DNA from: Knoellia flava TL1
Lineage (GTDB): Bacteria > Actinomycetota > Actinomycetes > Actinomycetales > Dermatophilaceae
Direction of reading: 5' to 3'
NCBI RefSeq assembly: GCF_000768675.1
Contig: NZ_AVPI01000028.1
Coordinates: forward strand, 1 to 54,624
Length of the DNA: 54,624 nucleotides
Positions 45,265 through 54,624 of the stretch are shown here, one piece after another. Under the pieces are notes generated by a model that saw only the letters and a list, made by a program, of their open reading frames with translations, did not search any database and was not told the origin of the DNA. Each line of letters opens with the position of its first letter. Positions within the stretch are counted from its first letter, which is position 1. The position numbers and the translations under genes were made by a program.

Positions 45265-47838
45265 TCAGTCGGTCTGCCAGGTGCTGCCGTAGGCGCAGAA
45301 TGCCTCCGCTCCCGGCACCGCCTGCGCGGTCAGCCGCAGCGCGGACGCGACGTCGACGCCGACCGCCAGCCGCCTGTGCAGGTCGACCATGGCGGCTGCC
45401 GCGACGTCGTCGTGCACCGGGTTCGTCGCCGCGACGACGCACTGCACCCCGAGCCCGAGCAGCGCGGCCGCGAGGCCGAGCGGTTCGTCGCCCGGTCGTC
45501 CGCGGCTGCGGCCGACGTCGCACGCCGACAGGACGACGAGCTCGGCGGCGAGGGGAGCCCGCAGCTCGTGCGCGAAGACCGGGCCGTCGGCGAGGTCGAG
45601 CGACGAGAAGAGCGGGCTCTGGTCGACGTGGTGCCCGTGCGCGGCCAGGTGCACGACGCTCGCCGTCGCGAGGGCCGAGCGCACGTCGGCCGTGACCGCC
45701 GCGCCCTCCGCGACGACGGCCGCCCCGGCCTCGCCGGTCTGGACCGTGCTCGCCGTGCTGCGTGGTCGGACCCCCGAGCCGTCACCCGTATGCCGGCCCC
45801 ACGCCTCGGCGACCGCGCGCACCTCCTCGCGCGCCCGCGGGAGACCAGGCCCCCACAGGGCGCCGATGGTCGGGTCGGCGCTCGCCGTGACCGGTCGGCG
45901 CACCCACGCCGTCGCCGACGGCGCTGCGACGACGGGGTGTTCGCGCAGCGTGGGCAGCGCCCGCCACGGGAGTGACGCGAGCCCGACCGTGGGGACCACG
46001 ACGACCGTGCCCGAGAGCTCGACACCGCGCAGCAGCAGCCCGTCGACCTCGCGCAGCGAGGACTCGCGGGCACGGGCGAGGAAGGCCGCCATCGACGGCC
46101 TCGCGACGGCATACGCGCGCATGTCGGAGGTGAGGCGTGCACTCGCGGAGGCGACGTCGCGGACCGGGCCGAGGACGCTCTGGGCGGCTGTGCCGGAGCG
46201 GTCGACGACGAGCCGGACGACGGTGCCGCGGACCTCGTGGAAGGTGACGAGCGTGGCGTCACGCTCGGCGACCGCCCGCGCCGCCGCCTCGAAGGCGACC
46301 GCGCGGACGTCGGCTTCGTCGCGCTCCCCTCGGGCAGCGCGCAGCCGTTCGGTGATCTCGCTTTGGAGGAGGACGACCTCGCGCTGGGCGCTCGACAGGG
46401 GGGTGTCGTCCGCGCTCCGCCGCAGGCGGCGCAGGCGGCCGACGAGCGCTGCGGTCTCCTCGTCCTCGGGCGGGCGCAGGGGCGGGGCGCGGTGCGACGC
46501 GGCTCGCCACCGCTCGACGCTCTCGAAGAGCGCGGGCAGCGACCCGGAGTCGGTCGCGGCCTCGACGTCGGCGTCTCGGATGCGCGCGGCGTGGAAGGCC
46601 AGCCCGGCCCGGATCTCCATGCTGTGCACGCCGCCCTGGTCGAGGGCGAGCTGCTCAGCGGCCTCCTCGAGGATCCGCGTCGCCCGGTCGGCGTCACCGT
46701 CAGCGGCGGCGAGCCTCGAGGCGAGGAGGTGCTCGTGGAGACGGGCGCCGAGCGGCTGGGGCTGGTCGCTGCGCAGGCGCTCGAGCTCCACCCGCGCGGC
46801 CTGCCGGTCGTTGTGCGCGAGCGCCACCTCGGCGCGGATCCGGGTGGCGAGGCGTTCGGGCGGGGTCACCGGGGTGGTGGTGTCCCACTTCGCCGCGACG
46901 CGGGACGCGCGGGTGAGGCTGCGGCCGACGCCGAGGTCGACGGCCGCGCCGAAGAGCTCGACCTCCTCGGTCCGGCCGTCGGCGTGCAGCGCCCGGAAGG
47001 TGCGCACGGCGTGCCCCGCCCGGACCCGGGCCTGCGCCACGTCGCCGCGGAGCAGGGCCGAGCGGGCGAGGTCGAGCTGGACGTCTCCGCGCTCGAGCGG
47101 CTGCCGGTCCCGCCGCGCGGCGTCGAGCCCGCGGGCGAGGACGTCCTCGGCCTCGTCGATGAGACCGGCGTCGAGGAGCACCTTGCCGAGGTCGAGCAGG
47201 CCGCGGGCGCTCGTGATGTCGAGCGGCATGTCGGCGGCCTCGCGCATGAGCGCCAGTGCGCCGGGGATGTCGCCGGCGATCCACGCGACGCAGCCGAGGT
47301 TGTGCCGCGCCTTGTACTCCTGCGCCACGAAGCCGTGCTCGACGGCGATGTCGAGGGCGCGGTCGAGGTCGGCCCGTCCGTGCTCGAGGTCGCCGAGCGA
47401 GACCGACGCGAGCCCCCGGTTGAGCAGGGCCGAGCAGCGTTCGCGCGGCACGAGCTCGTCGAGGTGGGGCTCGACGTGGCCGAGCTCGTCGAGGGACTCG
47501 ATCCAGTTGGAGCACATGACGTGGATCGCCCCGGCCTGCAGGTGCGCTTGCACCTCGAGCAGAGGGGCGTCGTGGCGGCGGGCGAGGTCGCGCACCGAGC
47601 CGAGGAGCGCGAGGGCGGCATCCGGTCCGTCGATGCCGAGGCGCGACACGGCCCGGGTGATGAGGACCCGTGCCCGCAGACGGGCGAGGTCCCGCGCCTC
47701 GTCGGCGCCCGCTGGCGTGACGGCGTCGAGGGCCGTGAGGGCGCGCGACAGCGCGGCGTCGGCTCGTCGGTAGTGTCCCGCCGAGTTCTCGGCCTTCCCC
47801 CTCTCGTGGAGGTCGCGAATGCTGTCGAGCGTCGTGGT
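45265..47838 (-). CDS. TPR-CHAT protease; start codon unclear
   Basis: A large cytosolic protein, about 795 residues from the GTG at 47649 and about 858 counted from 47838. The first 450 residues are TPR helices (ALLNRGLASVSLGDLEHGRADLDRAL, KARHNLGCVAWIAGDIPGALALM, LARSALLRGDVAQARVRAGHAV). The C-terminal 300 residues are a CHAT caspase-fold protease with His in VVHLAAHGHHVDQSPLFSSL and Cys in ELVVLSACDVGRSRG, so both catalytic residues are there. Clear TPR coding continues upstream of 47649 in frame (LDSIRDLHERGKAEN, HYRRADAALSRALTAL) with no ATG, GTG or TTG. The likely true start lies around 47820-47838, where only ACG/ATT codons exist. Last gene of a leftward protease operon. Confidence 0.82.
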   Translation of the reverse strand, partial: TTTLDSIRDLHERGKAENSAGHYRRADAALSRALTALDAVTPAGADEARDLARLRARVLITRAVSRLGIDGPDAALALLGSVRDLARRHDAPLLEVQAHLQAGAIHVMCSNWIESLDELGHVEPHLDELVPRERCSALLNRGLASVSLGDLEHGRADLDRALDIAVEHGFVAQEYKARHNLGCVAWIAGDIPGALALMREAADMPLDITSARGLLDLGKVLLDAGLIDEAEDVLARGLDAARRDRQPLERGDVQLDLARSALLRGDVAQARVRAGHAVRTFRALHADGRTEEVELFGAAVDLGVGRSLTRASRVAAKWDTTTPVTPPERLATRIRAEVALAHNDRQAARVELERLRSDQPQPLGARLHEHLLASRLAAADGDADRATRILEEAAEQLALDQGGVHSMEIRAGLAFHAARIRDADVEAATDSGSLPALFESVERWRAASHRAPPLRPPEDEETAALVGRLRRLRRSADDTPLSSAQREVVLLQSEITERLRAARGERDEADVRAVAFEAAARAVAERDATLVTFHEVRGTVVRLVVDRSGTAAQSVLGPVRDVASASARLTSDMRAYAVARPSMAAFLARARESSLREVDGLLLRGVELSGTVVVVPTVGLASLPWRALPTLREHPVVAAPSATAWVRRPVTASADPTIGALWGPGLPRAREEVRAVAEAWGRHTGDGSGVRPRSTASTVQTGEAGAAVVAEGAAVTADVRSALATASVVHLAAHGHHVDQSPLFSSLDLADGPVFAHELRAPLAAELVVLSACDVGRSRGRPGDEPLGLAAALLGLGVQCVVAATNPVHDDVAAAAMVDLHRRLAVGVDVASALRLTAQAVPGAEAFCAYGSTWQTD

Positions 47839-47848
47839 CGGCCGCCCC

Positions 47849-48352
47849 TCAGATCTCGATCCCGGGCGTGATGACCGGGCGGGCGCCCGGCTCGTCGTGG
47901 CGCCTGATGACGAGGTGGACGGTTCCGCGTTCGACTCCCTCGAAGACGAAGCGCCCCTCGTCGTCGGCCGTCGTCGTCGCGGACCGGGCGCGCTCGCGCA
48001 GCTCGACCTCCGCGCCCGGCGCGGTGACCCACCCGCGCACGGTGGTCGTGCCGCGGTCGGCGTCCTCGAGCGTGACCATGATGCTCAGCCCGTCGCTCTC
48101 GAACGTCACCGTCGTGGCGCGGTCGTACTCCGTGGTGCGGACCGTGCCGGCCGGGGCGCCCTCGTTGATGATGTGGGCGACCTCCGCCTCGAGGCTGGCG
48201 ACCGTCATCGCGAACTTCACGCGCTCGGCGAGGCCGCTGGGCACGGGGTCGGCGGCGGCGAGGTGCGTGCGGACGAGGGCAAGGGCGCGCTCGTCGTCGG
48301 CGTCCATCGGCTGGCCAGCGAGGACGTCCTCGGCCGGGTTCGGGGTGTTCAT
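47849..48352 (-). CDS. Small protein of two parts, helical N-terminus and beta-sandwich-like C-terminus; regulator-like
   Basis: A 167-residue protein of unknown function. The first 65 residues are helical (ERALALVRTHLAAADPVPSGLAERVKFAMT), resembling the N-terminal segment of small anti-sigma-like proteins, though without the HX3CX2C zinc motif. Residues 75-167 are a strand-rich module (TVTFESDGLSIMVTLED, TTVRGWVTAPGAEVEL, GRFVFEGVERGTVHLVIRR) like a carboxypeptidase-regulatory or transthyretin-type domain. Its ATG overlaps the sigma-factor stop, so coupled translation is expected. I infer that it controls the sigma factor or links it to the CHAT protease. That is not proven. Confidence 0.72.
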   Translation of the reverse strand: MNTPNPAEDVLAGQPMDADDERALALVRTHLAAADPVPSGLAERVKFAMTVASLEAEVAHIINEGAPAGTVRTTEYDRATTVTFESDGLSIMVTLEDADRGTTTVRGWVTAPGAEVELRERARSATTTADDEGRFVFEGVERGTVHLVIRRHDEPGARPVITPGIEI

Positions 48353-48978
48353 GCCGTCACCTCCCAGGCGGGGTCGGACGTGAGGGCGAGCCTCAGCTTG
48401 GCGAGGCACCGACCGCGCGTGGGCCCGATGCTGCCGACGGGCATCCCCAGCGCGGCGCTCACGGCGGCGTAGTCGGGGCGGTCGACGAAGGCGACGAGCC
48501 GGAGGAGCTGCTGGCAACGCTCGGGGAGGCGCTCGATGTGCCGCCAGATGACACCGGCGAGCTCGGACTCCTCGGTCGCGACGGCCGGGTCGGGGACGGT
48601 CGCCGCGGCGGTCGGGTCGAGTGTGGGCGTCTCCTCCCACGGCTCCCTCGGCACGGTCCGCCGACCGCGGCGCACCGCGCTCCAGGCCTCGCGCTTCGTC
48701 GTCATGAGCAGCCACTGGAGCACGGCCTGCGGGTCGGCGATGTCGTGGGTGTGCTCGACGAGCTTGAGCCACGTCGTCTGGACGACGTCCTCGGCGAGGG
48801 CCGGGTCAGCTCCCTGCGACCGGGCGGTGTGCCAGAGCAGCGGTGTCACGTCGTCGACGAGACGGTCCATCGCACTGGAGTCGCCCTCGCGGTGCAGGGT
48901 GAAGGCCCGCGCCGCGGTGAGGGCGAGGCTCGGCGCCGCACCCGCGGTGCCGGGCTGCTCGTCGCGTGCGGTGCTCAC
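48349..48978 (-). CDS. ECF-like RNA polymerase sigma factor of the protease operon
   Basis: A 209-residue sigma-70 family protein. Region 2: WHTARSQGADPALAEDVVQTTWLKLVEHTHDI and VLQWLLMTTKREAWSAVRRGRR. Region 4: IERLPERCQQLLRLVAFVDRPDYAAVSAALGMPVGSIGPTRGRCLAKLR. The GTG at 48978 overlaps the subtilase stop (GTGA) and the stop overlaps the next ATG. Encoding a sigma factor between two protease genes implies dedicated, probably autoregulated, transcription. There is no zinc anti-sigma gene in this operon, only the small two-part protein. Confidence 0.87.
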   Translation of the reverse strand: MSTARDEQPGTAGAAPSLALTAARAFTLHREGDSSAMDRLVDDVTPLLWHTARSQGADPALAEDVVQTTWLKLVEHTHDIADPQAVLQWLLMTTKREAWSAVRRGRRTVPREPWEETPTLDPTAAATVPDPAVATEESELAGVIWRHIERLPERCQQLLRLVAFVDRPDYAAVSAALGMPVGSIGPTRGRCLAKLRLALTSDPAWEVTA

Positions 48979-50552
48979 GGCTTCTCCTCGAGGGCCTTGG
49001 CCGCGGAGGCGAGGACCTGCTCGACGACCTCGCGGGCGCGGGACCCGAGCTCGTCGGCCCCCTTGGCGCCGTGACCGGCCAGACCGGACGCGATGTCGCC
49101 GGCGAGGGCCGGTGCGGCGAACGAGGTCCCGCTCCACAGCCCGAACCCGCCGCTGTAGTCGTCGGTGTCGACGGCGCCCCGCGTGGGCACGGAGGGGAGC
49201 ACGCTCGCGTTCGCCTGCTTGAGGACCTCGCCGCGCCGCGAGGCGTTGAAGGTCACGGGCATCGTGCTCACGACGGAGGTCGCGGCGGAGTAAGCCCTCA
49301 CCCAGCCTCCGGTGTTCGAGTAGACCGACACCGTGCGACGGTCGGGGTTGAGGGCGCCGACGCTCACCATCGGTGCACCGCTCGTCACCTGGGAGGCATA
49401 GGCGGCAGGGAAGAACTCGACGTCGCTGGAGTCGTTGCCCGCGGCCGCGACGACGGTGACACCGAGCGAGGCCAGGCCGCGCAGCACCCGGAAGAGCGCC
49501 TCCTCGTCGTCGAAGGCCCCCGGCGTCTCGTGCCGGTAGCCGAGCGAGAGCGTGACGACGTGCAGGGCCTGCGAGCGGTCGCCGCCGTCGCGCAGGGCGA
49601 CGAGCTGGCGCAGGTAGAGACCGGTGAGGGCTCGCACGACGTCGGTCTCGTCGGCGACGCCGTCGCCCCACATGACCGGGACGGACAGGATCCGGGCGTC
49701 GGGACAGTGCTGGCGGATGACCCCGGCGATGAACGTCCCGTGCCCGGCAAGCCGGTCGAGGCGGCCGTTGACCGGGTCGGTCGTCACGCCGGCGTCCTCC
49801 GGGTCGTGCCCCGCCGGGAAGGTCACGCCGAGCGACCCCGCCGAACCGTCCGGGTGCCGCTCGACGCCGGTGTCGAACCACGGGTGCTTGCCCAGCCCGG
49901 TGTCGAGCACGGCGACGACCGGTCCGTCCTCGCTGCGTGGCCCCACGACCGGCGCCGACCACACGACCGGGATGCGGCCGCCGGACCCGCGACCGATGCC
50001 GTCGCCCCAGCCGATGCCGTCACCCCAACCGATCCCGTCCCCCCAGCCGATGCCGTCGCCCCAGCCGATGCCGTCGCCCCAGCCGATCCCGTCGCCCCAG
50101 CCTGCCGCTGTCATGACGTGGGCCAGGCCGATGCCGCGCGCCCCACGGGTCCGGGTCGACTGGAGGATCTCCCAGGCGTCCGCCGGGGCGGAGTCGCGCT
50201 GGGCGGGCACGAGCCGGACGGCCGTCTGCCCCACCGCGTCGAGCTGCTCCAGGAGGTCGTTGCGCCGCGCCAGACCGAGGAGGCCGTCGTCGGGAACCGG
50301 CTCCACGGCATACCCGCGTTCCTTTGCCGTCTCGGCGAGCACACTGAAGCGCTCGTCGAAGGAGAAGCCCTCGAGACCACTCACGAGCAGGACGTCGGCG
50401 ACGTATGCCGTGGGGTCCGGCGCGCGCCCGTCGACCCGGACAGCGGTGGTCGGGTCGAGGAAGCGGGCGCCCAGGCGACGCACGGCCGTGCCCGGGACGA
50501 CGGTGGTGGGGATGCGTCGCATGGCCCTGTCGGGGCGTTCGTCGTGGTTCAT
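48975..50552 (-). CDS. Intracellular S8 family serine protease (subtilase) with hexapeptide repeats
   Basis: A 525-residue subtilase. Residues 1-150 are an N-terminal domain without a signal peptide. Residues 151-186 are six copies of GWGDGI, and the catalytic domain follows with Asp in PVVAVLDTGLGKHP (near D217), His in LAGHGTFIAGVIRQHCPDA, oxyanion Asn in VTVVAAAGNDSSDVE and Ser in LWSGTSFAAPALAGDIA. All three residues of the triad are intact. Absence of a signal and the nearby CHAT protease indicate work in the cytoplasm. The ATG at 50552 has GGAAGG 5 bp upstream. It is the first gene of the operon S8, sigma, two-part protein, CHAT. Confidence 0.9.
   Translation of the reverse strand: MNHDERPDRAMRRIPTTVVPGTAVRRLGARFLDPTTAVRVDGRAPDPTAYVADVLLVSGLEGFSFDERFSVLAETAKERGYAVEPVPDDGLLGLARRNDLLEQLDAVGQTAVRLVPAQRDSAPADAWEILQSTRTRGARGIGLAHVMTAAGWGDGIGWGDGIGWGDGIGWGDGIGWGDGIGWGDGIGRGSGGRIPVVWSAPVVGPRSEDGPVVAVLDTGLGKHPWFDTGVERHPDGSAGSLGVTFPAGHDPEDAGVTTDPVNGRLDRLAGHGTFIAGVIRQHCPDARILSVPVMWGDGVADETDVVRALTGLYLRQLVALRDGGDRSQALHVVTLSLGYRHETPGAFDDEEALFRVLRGLASLGVTVVAAAGNDSSDVEFFPAAYASQVTSGAPMVSVGALNPDRRTVSVYSNTGGWVRAYSAATSVVSTMPVTFNASRRGEVLKQANASVLPSVPTRGAVDTDDYSGGFGLWSGTSFAAPALAGDIASGLAGHGAKGADELGSRAREVVEQVLASAAKALEEKP
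49995..50102 (-). repeat. Six 18-bp tandem repeats encoding GWGDGI
   Basis: Six exact-length 18-bp units within the S8 gene, between its N-terminal domain and its catalytic domain. The units are nearly identical at the DNA level (differences at third positions only), which indicates recent expansion. Confidence 0.92.
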
Positions 50553-50787
50553 CTGTGCCTTCCGTGAGCTCACGTGCTGACTCGCGGCGGCTGGTGCCGT
50601 CAGTTCAGCGTAGGGATTGGCCGGTCACGTGGAAAGGAGTTCGGCAAAGCCGTCCAGATACGCGATCGGCACACGAATCTGTGCAAAAAGTCGCCGCCCC
50701 GCCGATGTATCTGGCCAGACGGGGCGGACTCCTTCTCGCTGTCGGGGCCGTGCAGGGGCGGCCCCGCACCCAGCCCGAGGAGCAGTC
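50553..50787. promoter_or_regulatory. Divergent promoter region of the two protease operons
   Basis: 235 bp without a gene. It holds an inverted repeat CCAGATAC (50654-50661) / GTATCTGG (50707-50714), and a hairpin CCGCCCCG (50694-50701) / CGGGGCGG (50720-50727), the second arm followed by ACTCC. AT-rich TGCAAAAAG lies at 50682-50690. The exact promoters cannot be assigned, but a shared regulator, perhaps the operon's own sigma factor, is plausible. Confidence 0.5.
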
Positions 50788-52230
50788 ATGGCAACACAAC
50801 CCGAACAGGCCGCCCAGCGCGCGGCGATCAGGCCGGTCAAGGAGTCCGTCGAGGACGAGCTCATCGCCAGGCCCGGCGTCGTCGCCGTCGACATCGCCGA
50901 GAAGGAGACCGACGGCAGGAAGACCGGCGAGCTGAGCATCGTCGTCTTCGTCGAGGAGAAGAAGCCGAAGGGCAAGCTCGGCAAGGGGGCCCTCATCCCG
51001 GCGGAGATCGACGGTGTCAAGACGGACGTCCAGGAGCTCGAGATCGAGCTCCAGCCGGCCTTCAAGCAGGTCGACGAGACCGAGCTGCTCGTCGACCCGG
51101 CCAACTACCCGACCCTCGCCGGCGGCATCAGCATCGGCCCGCGGCGCAGCGTCTTCCTCTCGCCGCCGGACGTCCCGGCGCCGGGGAACTACGTCTTCGT
51201 GGGCACGCTCGGTGCGATGGTCCGTGACCGGGCGACGGGGGCGACGATGGCCTTGACGAACTTCCACGTCGCGTGTGTCAACAACACGTGGAGCGTCGGC
51301 GACCGCATGGTCCAGCCCTCGCTCGTCGACGGCGGTGCGCCCACCGGGGAGTTCGGCTCGCTCACGCGAGCGGTCCTGTCCGACAACGTCGACGGCGCCG
51401 TCATCACCGTCGACACGTCGGAGCCGTGGACGGCCACCGTCACCGGGATCGGCGACGTCGTGGGCAGCACCGCGGCCACGGTCGGCATGGCCGTGCAGAA
51501 GCGGGGGCGCACGACCGAGCACACGTTCGGGACCGTCGCCTCGACCGACTTCACCGTCACGGTCGACTATGGGAGCGACGTCGGCTCGCGCACGCTGCGC
51601 CACCAGATCCGCATCGACACCGACACCGCGCGCAACCCGCGGTTCTCCAACACCGGTGACTCCGGGTCGGTCATCCTCGACGGCTCGCGCAACGTCGTCG
51701 GGCTGCTCTTCGCCGGTGCGACGAACGGGTCGATGACCTTCGCCAACCCCATCCAGGCCGCCCTCGACGAGCTCGCCGTCGACCTGCTCGTCCCGACGGC
51801 GCTCGTGACGCGACCCATCTCCTCGTGCCTCAACACCCGGATCTCGATCTGCCTGCGGACCCGTCCGGAGGTGTCGTGCCCGACGATCAGGACGCGGATC
51901 GCGGCGCTGTGCCCGACCCTGCTCACCCGGTCACCGATCTGCGACGCCGTCACCCGGCCGACGCTGTGCGACGTCACCCGGCCGGCGCTCTGCGAGATCG
52001 AGGTCACCCGGTTCGGCTGCCCGCTCCCGACCCGTGCGTGCGGCGGCGAGTGGGAGCGTCCGCCGGTGGAGTGGTCGATCGGCGGCCGGAGGAGCGCCTA
52101 CGGCGCGTCCACGGACGACATCGAGTCCGCCGCCGACGAGGCGTTCTGGACCGGCTACCGCGCCGCGCTCGAGGAGGTCGAGACCCTCGACTCCGCCACC
52201 GACGGGTCCGGCCACCCGGGTGGTGCCTGA
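50788..52230 (+). CDS. Trypsin-fold serine protease with Thr-Arg...Cys repeat tail
   Basis: A 480-residue protein without signal peptide. Residues 1-100 form an N-terminal module (VEDELIARPGVVAVDIAEKE, LSIVVFVEEKKPK). Residues 115-335 are a trypsin-like domain with His160 in LTNFHVACVNN, Asp202 in SDNVDGAVITVD and Ser292 in NTGDSGSVILDG. Residues 341-418 contain nine units of Thr-Arg followed by Cys within 3-6 residues. Nine of the protein's ten cysteines lie here. The last 60 residues are acidic. The ATG at 50788 has GAGGAG 6 bp upstream. The next gene starts two bases after the stop. The tail's layout and the downstream kinase, HopA1-like and LanC-like genes suggest that this protein is also a lanthionine-modification substrate. 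Confidence 0.85.
   Translation: MATQPEQAAQRAAIRPVKESVEDELIARPGVVAVDIAEKETDGRKTGELSIVVFVEEKKPKGKLGKGALIPAEIDGVKTDVQELEIELQPAFKQVDETELLVDPANYPTLAGGISIGPRRSVFLSPPDVPAPGNYVFVGTLGAMVRDRATGATMALTNFHVACVNNTWSVGDRMVQPSLVDGGAPTGEFGSLTRAVLSDNVDGAVITVDTSEPWTATVTGIGDVVGSTAATVGMAVQKRGRTTEHTFGTVASTDFTVTVDYGSDVGSRTLRHQIRIDTDTARNPRFSNTGDSGSVILDGSRNVVGLLFAGATNGSMTFANPIQAALDELAVDLLVPTALVTRPISSCLNTRISICLRTRPEVSCPTIRTRIAALCPTLLTRSPICDAVTRPTLCDVTRPALCEIEVTRFGCPLPTRACGGEWERPPVEWSIGGRRSAYGASTDDIESAADEAFWTGYRAALEEVETLDSATDGSGHPGGA
51808..52047 (+). repeat. Nine Thr-Arg...Cys units (tail of the trypsin-fold protein)
   Basis: Thr-Arg pairs at residues 341, 350, 358, 369, 380, 389, 397, 407 and 415 are each followed by one Cys at 347, 355, 364, 375, 385, 394, 402, 411 and 418. 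The period is 7-11 residues. Two neighbouring units (about 51950-51995) are nearly identical at the DNA level (GTCACCCGGCCG), so the array has grown by duplication. Confidence 0.9.
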
Positions 52231-52232
52231 CC

Positions 52233-53159
52233 GTGGCCGCGTCGCCCAGCCTGCTCGGCGCGGCCGTCCGTCACGGGCTCGTGCCCGTGGCGGACGTCCG
52301 TGCCGGCCGCGTGCGGGTGCGACCGGTGTCCCGCAGCAACGCCGTGCACGCGGTCGAGCGGGCCGGGGTCGCCGTCGGCTTCGTCAAGCAACCCGGCACG
52401 GCGGCGCGGCTCGACGGTGACGACACCGCCGCCGTCGAGGCCCGCATCCTGGGCGCCATCGCGCCCCTCCGACTCGCACCGGCCCCGATCCTGCAGGGGG
52501 GATCGGGGTCGGTGTGGATGACCGCGCTGCCGGGGGTCGAGCTCGCGGGCGTCGTCGGGGGCGCGATTCTCCGCCCCGTCGCCATCGATGTCGGGCGCGC
52601 GCTCGCCCGGCTCCACCGCTTCCCGGTCGCCGGGTCGGGCCTGCCCGAAGCGGCCACGCCCTGGCCGCTGCTGGACGCGCTGCCCGTCTCGATGGAGGGT
52701 GGCCGCGTCCGGCCCGACACCCGCGTCGTCCTCGACCGCCTCGCCGACCCGGCCTTCCGGCGTGCCGTCGATGTGGCCCGCGCACAGTGGCGGCCGACCC
52801 ACCTCGTGCACGGCGACGTCGCGGCCGGCAACGTCATGGTCGAGACCTCGCCGGCCGGGGGCGTGCGGATCGCCCTCCTGGACTTCGAGCTCGGCGGACT
52901 CGGCAGCCCTGAGCACGACCTCGCCTCTGCCGCAGCGATGTTCGCCGCCCTCTCGCCTTCCGGCCTCGACCTGGCGGCGCTCTGCCTCGAGTCCTACTGG
53001 GCCGCCTGCGGCCCGGCCGAGCTCACGCCCGCGTGGCGCTGCGTGCGTGCCGTCATGACGGCCTGGCAGGTCGCCTTGGGTCGCGGCGACGCCGGCGCGG
53101 CAGAGGTCGCCCGGCTGCTCGCGGTCGCCGAGGCCGCCGCGGCCGAGGTGCCGTCATGA
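52233..53159 (+). CDS. APH-like kinase (phosphotransferase family)
   Basis: A 308-residue protein of the aminoglycoside-phosphotransferase/choline-kinase fold. Seen: VGFVKQPG with the ATP lysine, the catalytic loop THLVHGDVAAGNVMVE (HGD motif, near residue 190), IALLDFELGGLGSPEHDLASA with the metal-binding Asp. GTG at 52233, two bases after the protease stop. In class V lanthipeptide pathways and thioamitide pathways, an APH-like protein acts beside a HopA1-like protein to phosphorylate and eliminate Ser/Thr. The next gene here is HopA1-like, so that role is inferred. Resistance to an aminoglycoside is much less likely given context. Confidence 0.78.
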   Translation: MAASPSLLGAAVRHGLVPVADVRAGRVRVRPVSRSNAVHAVERAGVAVGFVKQPGTAARLDGDDTAAVEARILGAIAPLRLAPAPILQGGSGSVWMTALPGVELAGVVGGAILRPVAIDVGRALARLHRFPVAGSGLPEAATPWPLLDALPVSMEGGRVRPDTRVVLDRLADPAFRRAVDVARAQWRPTHLVHGDVAAGNVMVETSPAGGVRIALLDFELGGLGSPEHDLASAAAMFAALSPSGLDLAALCLESYWAACGPAELTPAWRCVRAVMTAWQVALGRGDAGAAEVARLLAVAEAAAAEVPS

Positions 53160-54052
53160 GCACGTGGGCGCCGGAGCACGCGAGCCGGGTGCTCACGGCA
53201 TACAAGGTTCTTCGCGAGGCTCCCACGGACGCCTCGCCCGCCGACGTCCTCTATCGCGACTGGTATGCCGTCCGCCCACCTCGCAGCGCCCCTCATGACC
53301 GCTGGGCCGCGCCGGTCGCGGGCACGGCGCGGGCCGCCCACGCGGGGTCGGCACGCTGGTCGCAGGAGGACACCGAGGTCGTCGCCACGGGCATCGCCGG
53401 GATCGTCGTCGTCGCGACGCCGACTGGGCGCCGGGCCCTGTGCCGCGGCGAGTACGTCACGACCCGGGGCAGGCCCGGGTTCCCGCCACGCACCGGGGAC
53501 CGCGTGCGGGTCCTCGACCGCCCCGGATCGGTCATCCAGGAGGGGTGGTGGCGGACCTGGGGCGGTCGATGGGACCCGAGCTCGGTGCCGGCGGGGCTGG
53601 TGCGCGTCTATCTCCGGCCCGCGGCCGGCGAGGTCGGCCGGCTCGTGCGCGCCGTGACCTCGGTGCTCGACGCCGACGGGTTGTGGATGCTCAAGGTCGC
53701 CGCCTCCGCCGAGCAGCTCGACCGGCCCGACGCCGTCGTGCTCTACCTCGCCGGACCGCGGCGCCACCGGGTGCGGCGCGCCGTCGTCGAGGCCCTCACC
53801 GGTCTCACGACAGGGGAGCCCCCGGCCCTCACGGCCCGGCTCGGCGAGGGCATCGGGTGGGCCGAGGACCCCGGGACGGGTGCGAGCTTCGGCGAAGTCC
53901 GGTGCGCGGCGGTCGCCACGGCATACGCTCGACTCGCCGGGGAGGTCGTCGACGCCGGAGCGTGGCTCGACCTCGTCGCCGACGAGCTGCGGAGCACCGG
54001 GGTGGACCCCTCTGCACCTCACCGGGGCACGCGGGCGACGGAGTCGGCGTGA
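53156..54052 (+). CDS. HopA1-like protein (putative phospho-Ser/Thr lyase)
   Basis: A 298-residue protein. Residues 120-215 resemble the T3SS effector HopA1 family: VRVYLRPAAGEVGRLVRAVTSVL, then a hydrophobic LWMLKVAASAEQLDRPDAVVLYLAG, the family's pattern of a basic strand, K-x-hydrophobic strand and R-x-DA-V-LY motif. C-terminal FGEVRCAAVATAYARLA fits too. The start overlaps the kinase stop (ATGA). Known relatives work as lyases in class V lanthipeptide and thioamitide biosynthesis, where they remove phosphate from phosphorylated Ser/Thr to give dehydro residues. The N-terminal 50 residues are unfamiliar. HopA1 identity is by pattern memory, so moderate confidence. Confidence 0.7.
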   Translation: MSTWAPEHASRVLTAYKVLREAPTDASPADVLYRDWYAVRPPRSAPHDRWAAPVAGTARAAHAGSARWSQEDTEVVATGIAGIVVVATPTGRRALCRGEYVTTRGRPGFPPRTGDRVRVLDRPGSVIQEGWWRTWGGRWDPSSVPAGLVRVYLRPAAGEVGRLVRAVTSVLDADGLWMLKVAASAEQLDRPDAVVLYLAGPRRHRVRRAVVEALTGLTTGEPPALTARLGEGIGWAEDPGTGASFGEVRCAAVATAYARLAGEVVDAGAWLDLVADELRSTGVDPSAPHRGTRATESA

Positions 54053-54624
54053 TGAGGGCCGCCCTGACCGAGACGGAGCACGACCTGATGCCAGGGAGCG
54101 ACCCCACCGACGAGCCTGCCGATCAGCGCGCCGTCGTGCTCGCGGCCGCCCACCGGTGCGTCGACCTCCTCGTGCGCACCGCGATCCTCGACGACGACGG
54201 CGACCCGACCTGGCCCGCCTGGGAGACCGGACCAGAGGGCGCCATCGGTGTCGTCGCCGGCCGGCGCTCCCTCTACGACGGCGATGCCGGGGTGGTGTGG
54301 TCGCTGACCCACCTCGGCGAGGCCCTCAACCGCCCCGACGCCGTCGAGCTCGCCGCGTCGGGGATGCGAGCGCTCCTGCGATCGCGTCCTGACGAGCCGG
54401 ACGCCCCCGCAGGGCTGCTCGTCGGCGAGGCCGGGGTCGACCTGCTCCGTCGCGGGCGCGCCTCGCGCGGCTGGTCCGACGGGAGCGACCTCACCGACGG
54501 GCTCGCCGGGATCCTGCTCTCACTGGCGCGAGCCCGCCACCACGAGGAGCACGCCGCCGCCGTTGTCGCCGAGCTGCGCCACCGCGCGCGCGTCGAGCCG
54601 TGGGGCCGCAGCTGGCCCGACCAC
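54052..54624 (+). CDS. LanC-like protein (N-terminal part, runs off window)
   Basis: Open from ATG 54052 (overlapping the previous TGA as TGATG) to the window end, 191 codons. Contains repeated GxAG-type helical-barrel motifs typical of the lanthionine cyclase family: RSLYDGDAGVVWSLTHLGEAL, GLLVGEAGVDLLRRG and SDLTDGLAGILLSLARAR. The zinc-ligand motifs of LanC (Cys and Cys-His) would lie beyond the window, so cyclase activity cannot be judged. With the kinase and HopA1-like genes it completes the set needed to form (methyl)lanthionine. Confidence 0.68.
   Translation, partial: MRAALTETEHDLMPGSDPTDEPADQRAVVLAAAHRCVDLLVRTAILDDDGDPTWPAWETGPEGAIGVVAGRRSLYDGDAGVVWSLTHLGEALNRPDAVELAASGMRALLRSRPDEPDAPAGLLVGEAGVDLLRRGRASRGWSDGSDLTDGLAGILLSLARARHHEEHAAAVVAELRHRARVEPWGRSWPDH

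Follow-up and report, generated by a model that had tools for sequence, protein, structure and literature searches.

A class Vb-type lanthionine synthetase set predicted to act on the Thr/Cys-repeat tail of a NAL1-type serine protease in Knoellia flava TL1 and related actinobacteria

The dehydratases of class Va lanthipeptides and thioamitides (CaoK/CaoY, LxmK/LxmY, TvaC/TvaD) are described in PMC9486802 and PMC12291118 as pairs of an APH kinase and a HopA1 lyase. According to PMC12291118, these systems rely on LanX and LanD and no LanC is reported for them, while a set composed of LanK, LanY and LanC defines class Vb. A set of the latter kind is found at the end of contig NZ_AVPI01000028.1 of Knoellia flava TL1 (54,624 nucleotides; this entire contig, one of 94 in the genome, is referred to as the window), directly behind the gene of a serine protease with a C-terminal array of Thr-Arg...Cys units (Table 1). 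The locus shares the kinase and lyase pair with class Va but differs from it in possessing a LanC. It shares with class Vb synthetases (LanK PF01636, LanY PF17914, LanC) three separate enzymes with conserved catalytic residues, and these are predicted to make thioethers by the same chemistry. The substrate of class Vb enzymes is a short LanA peptide, whereas here it is apparently the tail of a large protease. Judged from sequence, it is very probable that the target of this class Vb-type synthetase is the tail of the protease whose gene immediately precedes its own, and this tail probably stays attached to the enzyme.

A first-pass annotation had described four consecutive genes, spaced by two bases or overlapping, for a trypsin-fold protease, an APH-like kinase, a HopA1-like protein and a LanC-like protein, and both the arrangement and the assignments are borne out. 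The junctions are a 2-base gap, a 4-base overlap and a 1-base overlap. The kinase matches Pfam APH (1.9e-18), while its match to the NCBIfam model LxmK (E 0.0076) lies far under the cut-off of that model. Its active-site residues are invariant in seventeen sequences and the motif HGD....N is present in all eighteen loci with a protease of the window's type (S1-type, see below). The product of the third gene belongs to the HopA1 family (PF17914, 6e-18), and its sole strong sequence match in the PDB is 9dk1, a chain named Lyase (7.7e-14). Its four table residues are invariant across nineteen aligned rows: the Lys, Arg and Tyr have the spacing of K219, R229 and Y236 of CaoY, as given in PMC9486802, and R150 is taken to match R187 of that enzyme. 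The same Lys, Arg and Tyr spacing is seen in the HopA1-like protein of a further S1-type locus (L103, genome G214) and in three loci with a subtilisin-type protease (L152-L154).

The LanC-like frame is cut by the contig end, and this fragment scores under the cut-offs (Pfam LANC_like 2.8e-4, 20.0 bits against a cut-off of 23.2 bits; NCBIfam LanL 2.4e-7 and LanM 3e-7, both far under). Another contig of this genome, C2, carries a second half at its end (E 6.1e-97, profile positions 192-415), and a full-length relative matches LANC_like at 2.5e-28; judging from such relatives, we infer that the two halves form one gene. Completion of this gene beyond the window and inspection of its zinc ligands had been proposed: the half on C2 possesses GLAHGASG, WCHGSAG and LCHGAGG, in which GLAHG, WCHG and LCHG are taken by us to be zinc-ligand motifs as in NisC, and WCHG and [LIS]CHG occur in every complete LanC among 23 loci. 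The best PDB match of the LanC is LicM2 (2.2e-20). From their conserved catalytic residues, all three enzymes look active.

The tail of the window protease has nine units, as first read, with Thr-to-Cys distances of 6,5,6,6,5,5,5,4,3, and none of 2000 shuffles of its letters gave nine of nine. The eighteen S1-type tails hold 144 cysteines, each with its own Thr or Ser 3-6 residues upstream followed by a basic residue (112 TR, 27 SR, 4 TK and 1 TH; counting Thr/Ser plus Arg/Lys since the previous Cys gives 143, and allowing His as well gives 144 of 144). The observed pairing number was never reached in 2000 shuffles of each tail, and the protease bodies outside the tail contain 0 or 1 Cys. The order of distances is clade-specific: that of the window is shared with five relatives, while 6,6,6,6,5,3,3 is found in all seven tails of genus g41. 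At the codon level (sixteen of the eighteen proteins, L029 and L103 being excluded and units of unequal length dropped), the Cys columns are invariant (25/25), as are 23 of 25 Thr/Ser columns, the remaining two being Thr/Ser swaps; Arg/Lys is invariant in 21/25 columns and spacer positions in 21/74. Synonymous codons change despite this conservation (19 extra codons in Thr/Ser columns, 14 in Cys columns). The Thr/Ser and Cys columns are held while their synonymous codons vary and the spacers drift: selection acts on just those positions that dehydration and cyclisation require. The array is followed in all eighteen tails by an aromatic helix, [FYW]W.GY.AA[LI].

PF17914 was found in 21 of 186 genomes of the window's family. 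In seventeen of these, genes for the protease, kinase, HopA1 protein and LanC are clustered, alongside a divergent subtilase and genes for a sigma factor, a small protein and a CHAT protein (in one, G073, only the start of the subtilase is visible, as the contig begins there). The remaining four comprise G045 and G177, of subtilisin type, and G047 and G185, which are of other kinds; G047 has the CHAT, small protein, sigma factor and subtilase genes together with a HopA1 remnant. Identity to the window protease ranges from 51 to 84%. An order-wide search with the protease alignment gave matches in 83 of 396 genomes and added G214, the eighteenth genome with a tailed S1 protease and all three enzymes; its contig showed no gene for a CHAT protein, sigma factor or subtilase. 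G074, from the genus of the window, gives no HopA1 match, and its match to the protease profile covers only 43 residues. An order-wide HopA1 search found 21 of 396 genomes: seven of S1 type, four of subtilisin type (G045 and the new G321, G532 and G442), five with degenerate loci, four of other kinds (G185, G265, G350 and G369) and G342, a fragment that was not placed in any type.

In the subtilisin-type loci a subtilisin gene is followed by LanK, LanY and LanC. Their kinases retain the Asp and Asn in variant motifs. These Cys-tailed subtilisins (L028, L030, L152-L154) have an operon order identical to that of the window and Thr/Ser-Cys tails, but the fold of the protease is unrelated, and the CHAT, sigma factor and small protein genes were not detected in the five loci. 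The tails possess 8, 8, 11, 17 and 17 Cys, and a Thr or Ser lies 3-6 residues upstream of 61/61; the residue beside it is less fixed than in the S1 tails. Shuffled tails reach on average about one third of the observed number and match it in 0, 0, 0, 1 and 2 of 5000 cases. The survey proposed at the outset, of whether the three enzymes co-occur with Thr/Cys-tailed proteases elsewhere, thus yields eighteen S1-type genomes and five of subtilisin type. That the same three-enzyme set is paired with two unrelated protease folds goes beyond what the first-pass annotation had put forward.

Two groups of relatives, and a set of other HopA1 loci described below, serve as natural controls. In seven genomes of family f9 the CHAT, small protein and sigma factor genes accompany a related protease with a Cys-free (PFTE)n or (TQPF)n repeat as its tail (L104-L110, NAL1-type proteases with 23-34 PFTE repeats in six genomes and 13 TQPF repeats in one). 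No match to PF17914 (E up to 1) or LanC was obtained anywhere in these seven genomes. Other modifying enzymes beside the Cys-free tails were considered and rejected, since by reading the neighbours look ribosomal or nusG-like. A LanK-like protein lies beside the Cys-free-tailed protease in four of the seven (the one that was scanned, from L106, had no Pfam match). These four relatives, with a LanK-like protein and neither LanY nor LanC, would fit a scheme in which enzymatic action on the tail stops at phosphorylation or dehydration, the dehydrated residues persisting or capturing other thiols and LanC acting as a chaperone or detoxifier. We regard this as very improbable: there is one Cys per Thr/Ser at ring-size spacing, and the zinc-ligand motifs of LanC are retained. 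The second group, five f14 genomes (L112, L155-L158), has kept the CHAT, small protein, sigma factor and subtilase genes; the protease and LanK are absent from the fetched stretches. Judged by spacing, K180 and Y197 are lost from all five f14 LanYs, and both Cys motifs are lost from all four LanCs found in these five genomes. The f14 HopA1-like and LanC-like proteins are possible pseudoenzymes.

It had been noted at first that no small precursor gene is visible. This holds for the seventeen loci in which 394 short open reading frames (20-130 amino acids, within 2.5 kb of the genes, overlaps with the eight genes excluded) were compared: the fifteen largest conserved groups listed reach at most seven loci, lie in the outer flanks and resemble shadow or antisense frames, and were rejected as separate precursors. 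In two class V loci of another family (L130 and L131), taken for contrast, LanA-like genes of 106-111 amino acids with Cys-rich ends lie near LanK and a fused LanY-LanC. Separate kinase and HopA1 lyase proteins had been taken as the hallmark of class V lanthipeptide and thioamitide enzymes; this part stands, the set with LanC corresponding to class Vb, while a LanA was not found, and for this reason the locus is not filed as an ordinary class Vb cluster, although it would work like one, on a protein tail. The enzymes might instead modify a separate peptide encoded elsewhere, with the tail Cys serving for disulfides or metal binding, and the search, confined to the locus, leaves room for unlinked precursors. 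This explanation is improbable, given that the dehydratable Thr/Ser are held by selection as strictly as the Cys, that Cys-free tails accompany the absence of lyase and cyclase, and that the same pairing recurs in two protease folds. The earlier suggestion that the protease itself is the substrate is supported by the tail pairing, the lack of a local precursor and the co-occurrence.

The position of the array at the C-terminal side, the presence of two proteases in the locus and the basic residue beside the Thr/Ser that starts each unit are features expected if the tail were a lanthipeptide precursor fused to the protease, cut off after ring formation by the protease or the subtilase to give a free multi-ring peptide as product. 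We consider this unlikely, though less so than the two preceding alternatives. No dedicated exporter or leader-removal gene was recognised in those flanks that were read, without a systematic scan (the window ends inside LanC); the ring sizes and terminal helix are retained as if the whole tail matters; and relatives swap the array for Cys-free repeats. Retention of the modified tail on the protease is preferred here.

The protease matches no Pfam family above cut-off (Nal1_C, 0.0015, is under it). A structure model of its body from a 38-row alignment has a predicted local distance difference test score (pLDDT) of 91.6 and a predicted template modelling score of 0.90; an earlier AlphaFold model of the full protease including the tail, from seventeen rows, was not usable (pLDDT 33.8). 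The top solved structure for the body model is rice NAL1 (Foldseek E 7.6e-19), followed by L5 protease, Streptomyces griseus protease B (streptogrisin) and alpha-lytic protease, in agreement with the trypsin fold first assigned, and a sequence profile also points to NAL1 (E 1.1e-5). His160, Asp202 and Ser292 are invariant across the 38 rows, and the predicted fold is of chymotrypsin type and NAL1 kind with an intact His-Asp-Ser triad. The window protease resembles NAL1 proteases in the fold of its body and differs from them in being bacterial and in carrying a Cys-repeat tail and a lanthionine operon. Plasmid carriage was also considered and rejected: twelve records match part of the protease, none of them across 80% of the query.

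The following scheme can be proposed. LanK would phosphorylate the Thr or Ser opening each unit, LanY would eliminate the phosphate to give dehydrobutyrine or dehydroalanine, and a zinc-bearing LanC would add the Cys located 3-6 residues further on, so that as many as nine small (methyl)lanthionine rings would follow one another along the tail, or as many as seventeen in the subtilisin form. Once modified, the tail could form a rigid stalk, resistant to proteolysis, on which the C-terminal aromatic helix is kept at a defined distance. The S1-type protease itself would act intracellularly, together with the CHAT protein, the sigma factor and the divergently transcribed subtilase. By analogy with cacaoidin, for which PMC9486802 gives a leader helix with an essential Tyr modelled as kinase-binding, the C-terminal helix could be a kinase docking site.

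Several points weigh against this interpretation. The genomes are related, so that the counts of tailed loci do not represent independent events. The pairing rule for the subtilisin tails is the looser one, accepting any Thr or Ser 3-6 residues upstream, and the two tails whose pairing was matched by shuffles (1 and 2 of 5000) are those with eight Cys. The negative precursor result covers the seventeen loci, G214 and the five subtilisin loci not being among them, and within these only frames near the eight genes that do not overlap them. An intracellular S1-type protease is proposed from its N-termini, which show no apparent signal peptide as judged by eye only. The spacer or stalk role is itself a proposal, suggested by the f9 relatives because they replace the array with long Cys-free repeats. 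A similar C-terminal helix occurs in f9 genome G320, where no LanK-like gene was detected, which speaks against the docking idea; the helix is also present where LanY and LanC are absent, and it was not found in L152-L154.

Taken more broadly, it is moderately likely that a dedicated actinobacterial branch of lanthionine synthetases puts lasting staples into the tails of proteases that function inside the cell, as a module paired with two unrelated protease folds. If so, lanthionine formation would reach beyond antibiotic synthesis and serve to modify proteins for structural or regulatory ends; the locus would represent a natural multi-ring stapling system acting on a folded enzyme; and HopA1 and LanC genes without an adjacent precursor peptide would gain a testable role. 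Among the matches listed in the open PMC literature, going by titles and the starts of abstracts, no paper describes protease-borne lanthionine tails, and they are not mentioned in the part of PMC10885120 available to us.

Table 1. Features of the protease and lanthionine synthetase locus in the window (NZ_AVPI01000028.1)
Feature	Coordinates	Strand	Remarks
NAL1-type serine protease with C-terminal Thr/Cys tail	50788..52230	+	480 aa
Tail array, nine (T)R-x(1-4)-C units, proposed lanthionine sites	51808..52041	+	
C-terminal aromatic helix FWTGYRAALEEV	52144..52179	+	18/18 S1 tails; possible docking site
LanK-like APH kinase	52233..53159	+	308 aa, GTG start
LanY-like HopA1 lyase	53156..54052	+	298 aa; R150, K180, R190, Y197 invariant
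LanC-like cyclase, N-terminal 191 codons	54052..54624	+	frame still open where contig stops
Divergent S8 subtilase with GWGDGI repeats, partner gene	48975..50573	-	
Sigma-70-type factor	48349..48981	-	
Small conserved protein	47849..48349	-	~166 aa
TPR-CHAT (caspase-like) protein	45265..47649	-	
Promoter-like GTATCTG-N14-ACTCCTT, towards subtilase	50634..50661	-	
Promoter-like GTATCTG-N14-ACTCCTT, towards protease	50707..50734	+	

A class search gave 29 HopA1 genomes, eleven of them as loci of about 3.5 kb that were checked for the S1 type only. Neither protease type was present in the twenty other HopA1 loci fetched at length, three of which have LanC matches (L130, L131 and L026 (weak, distant)). 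A LanY tree was built from 60 sequences, some of which duplicate one gene; about 35 loci had been removed first, all but a few of them repeats. In this tree the S1, S8 and degenerate forms cluster, and the twin-HopA1 loci L096, L115 and L117 fall in their half; the remaining ordinary class V LanYs fill the other half. The protease-linked and degenerate LanYs thus stand apart from most ordinary class V LanYs, under midpoint rooting and with modest support (0.80 and 0.86) for the two halves only. L115 and L117 (G826 and G880) encode two adjacent HopA1-like genes, with no LanC match in the fetched stretch.

The partner subtilase possesses GIGWGDG repeats, and in the protease tail of L029 the Cys units are followed by GWGDGISDYGQ repeats, a motif common to both proteases (window 48975-50573, L029 6895-8400 and L044 10540-12207). 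The corresponding repeat of the G047 subtilase is GGAWGAT. Membership of a known defence system was considered with PADLOC and rejected: the CHAT protein matched only BovA (E 0.0022), and the L028 subtilisin matched a general subtilase model (2.1e-30) and IetS (3.8e-05).

Two divergent copies of the promoter-like GTATCTG-N14-ACTCCTT lie between the subtilase and protease genes, and both arms are aligned in 8/8 Knoellia loci. With one mismatch allowed per half, the site pair was found in 7/8 Knoellia loci and three f9 loci among 29 scanned; some of the rest have a single promoter-like site and several have none. A relaxed form gave seven sites in the window genome and 0 in the control, and each of the five extra sites has a candidate start codon no more than about 90 bases away; these sites may form a regulon of the sigma factor. 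Downstream of one of the extra sites (L167, contig C80 of genome G000), a small protein with an NPQPLPP motif is encoded.

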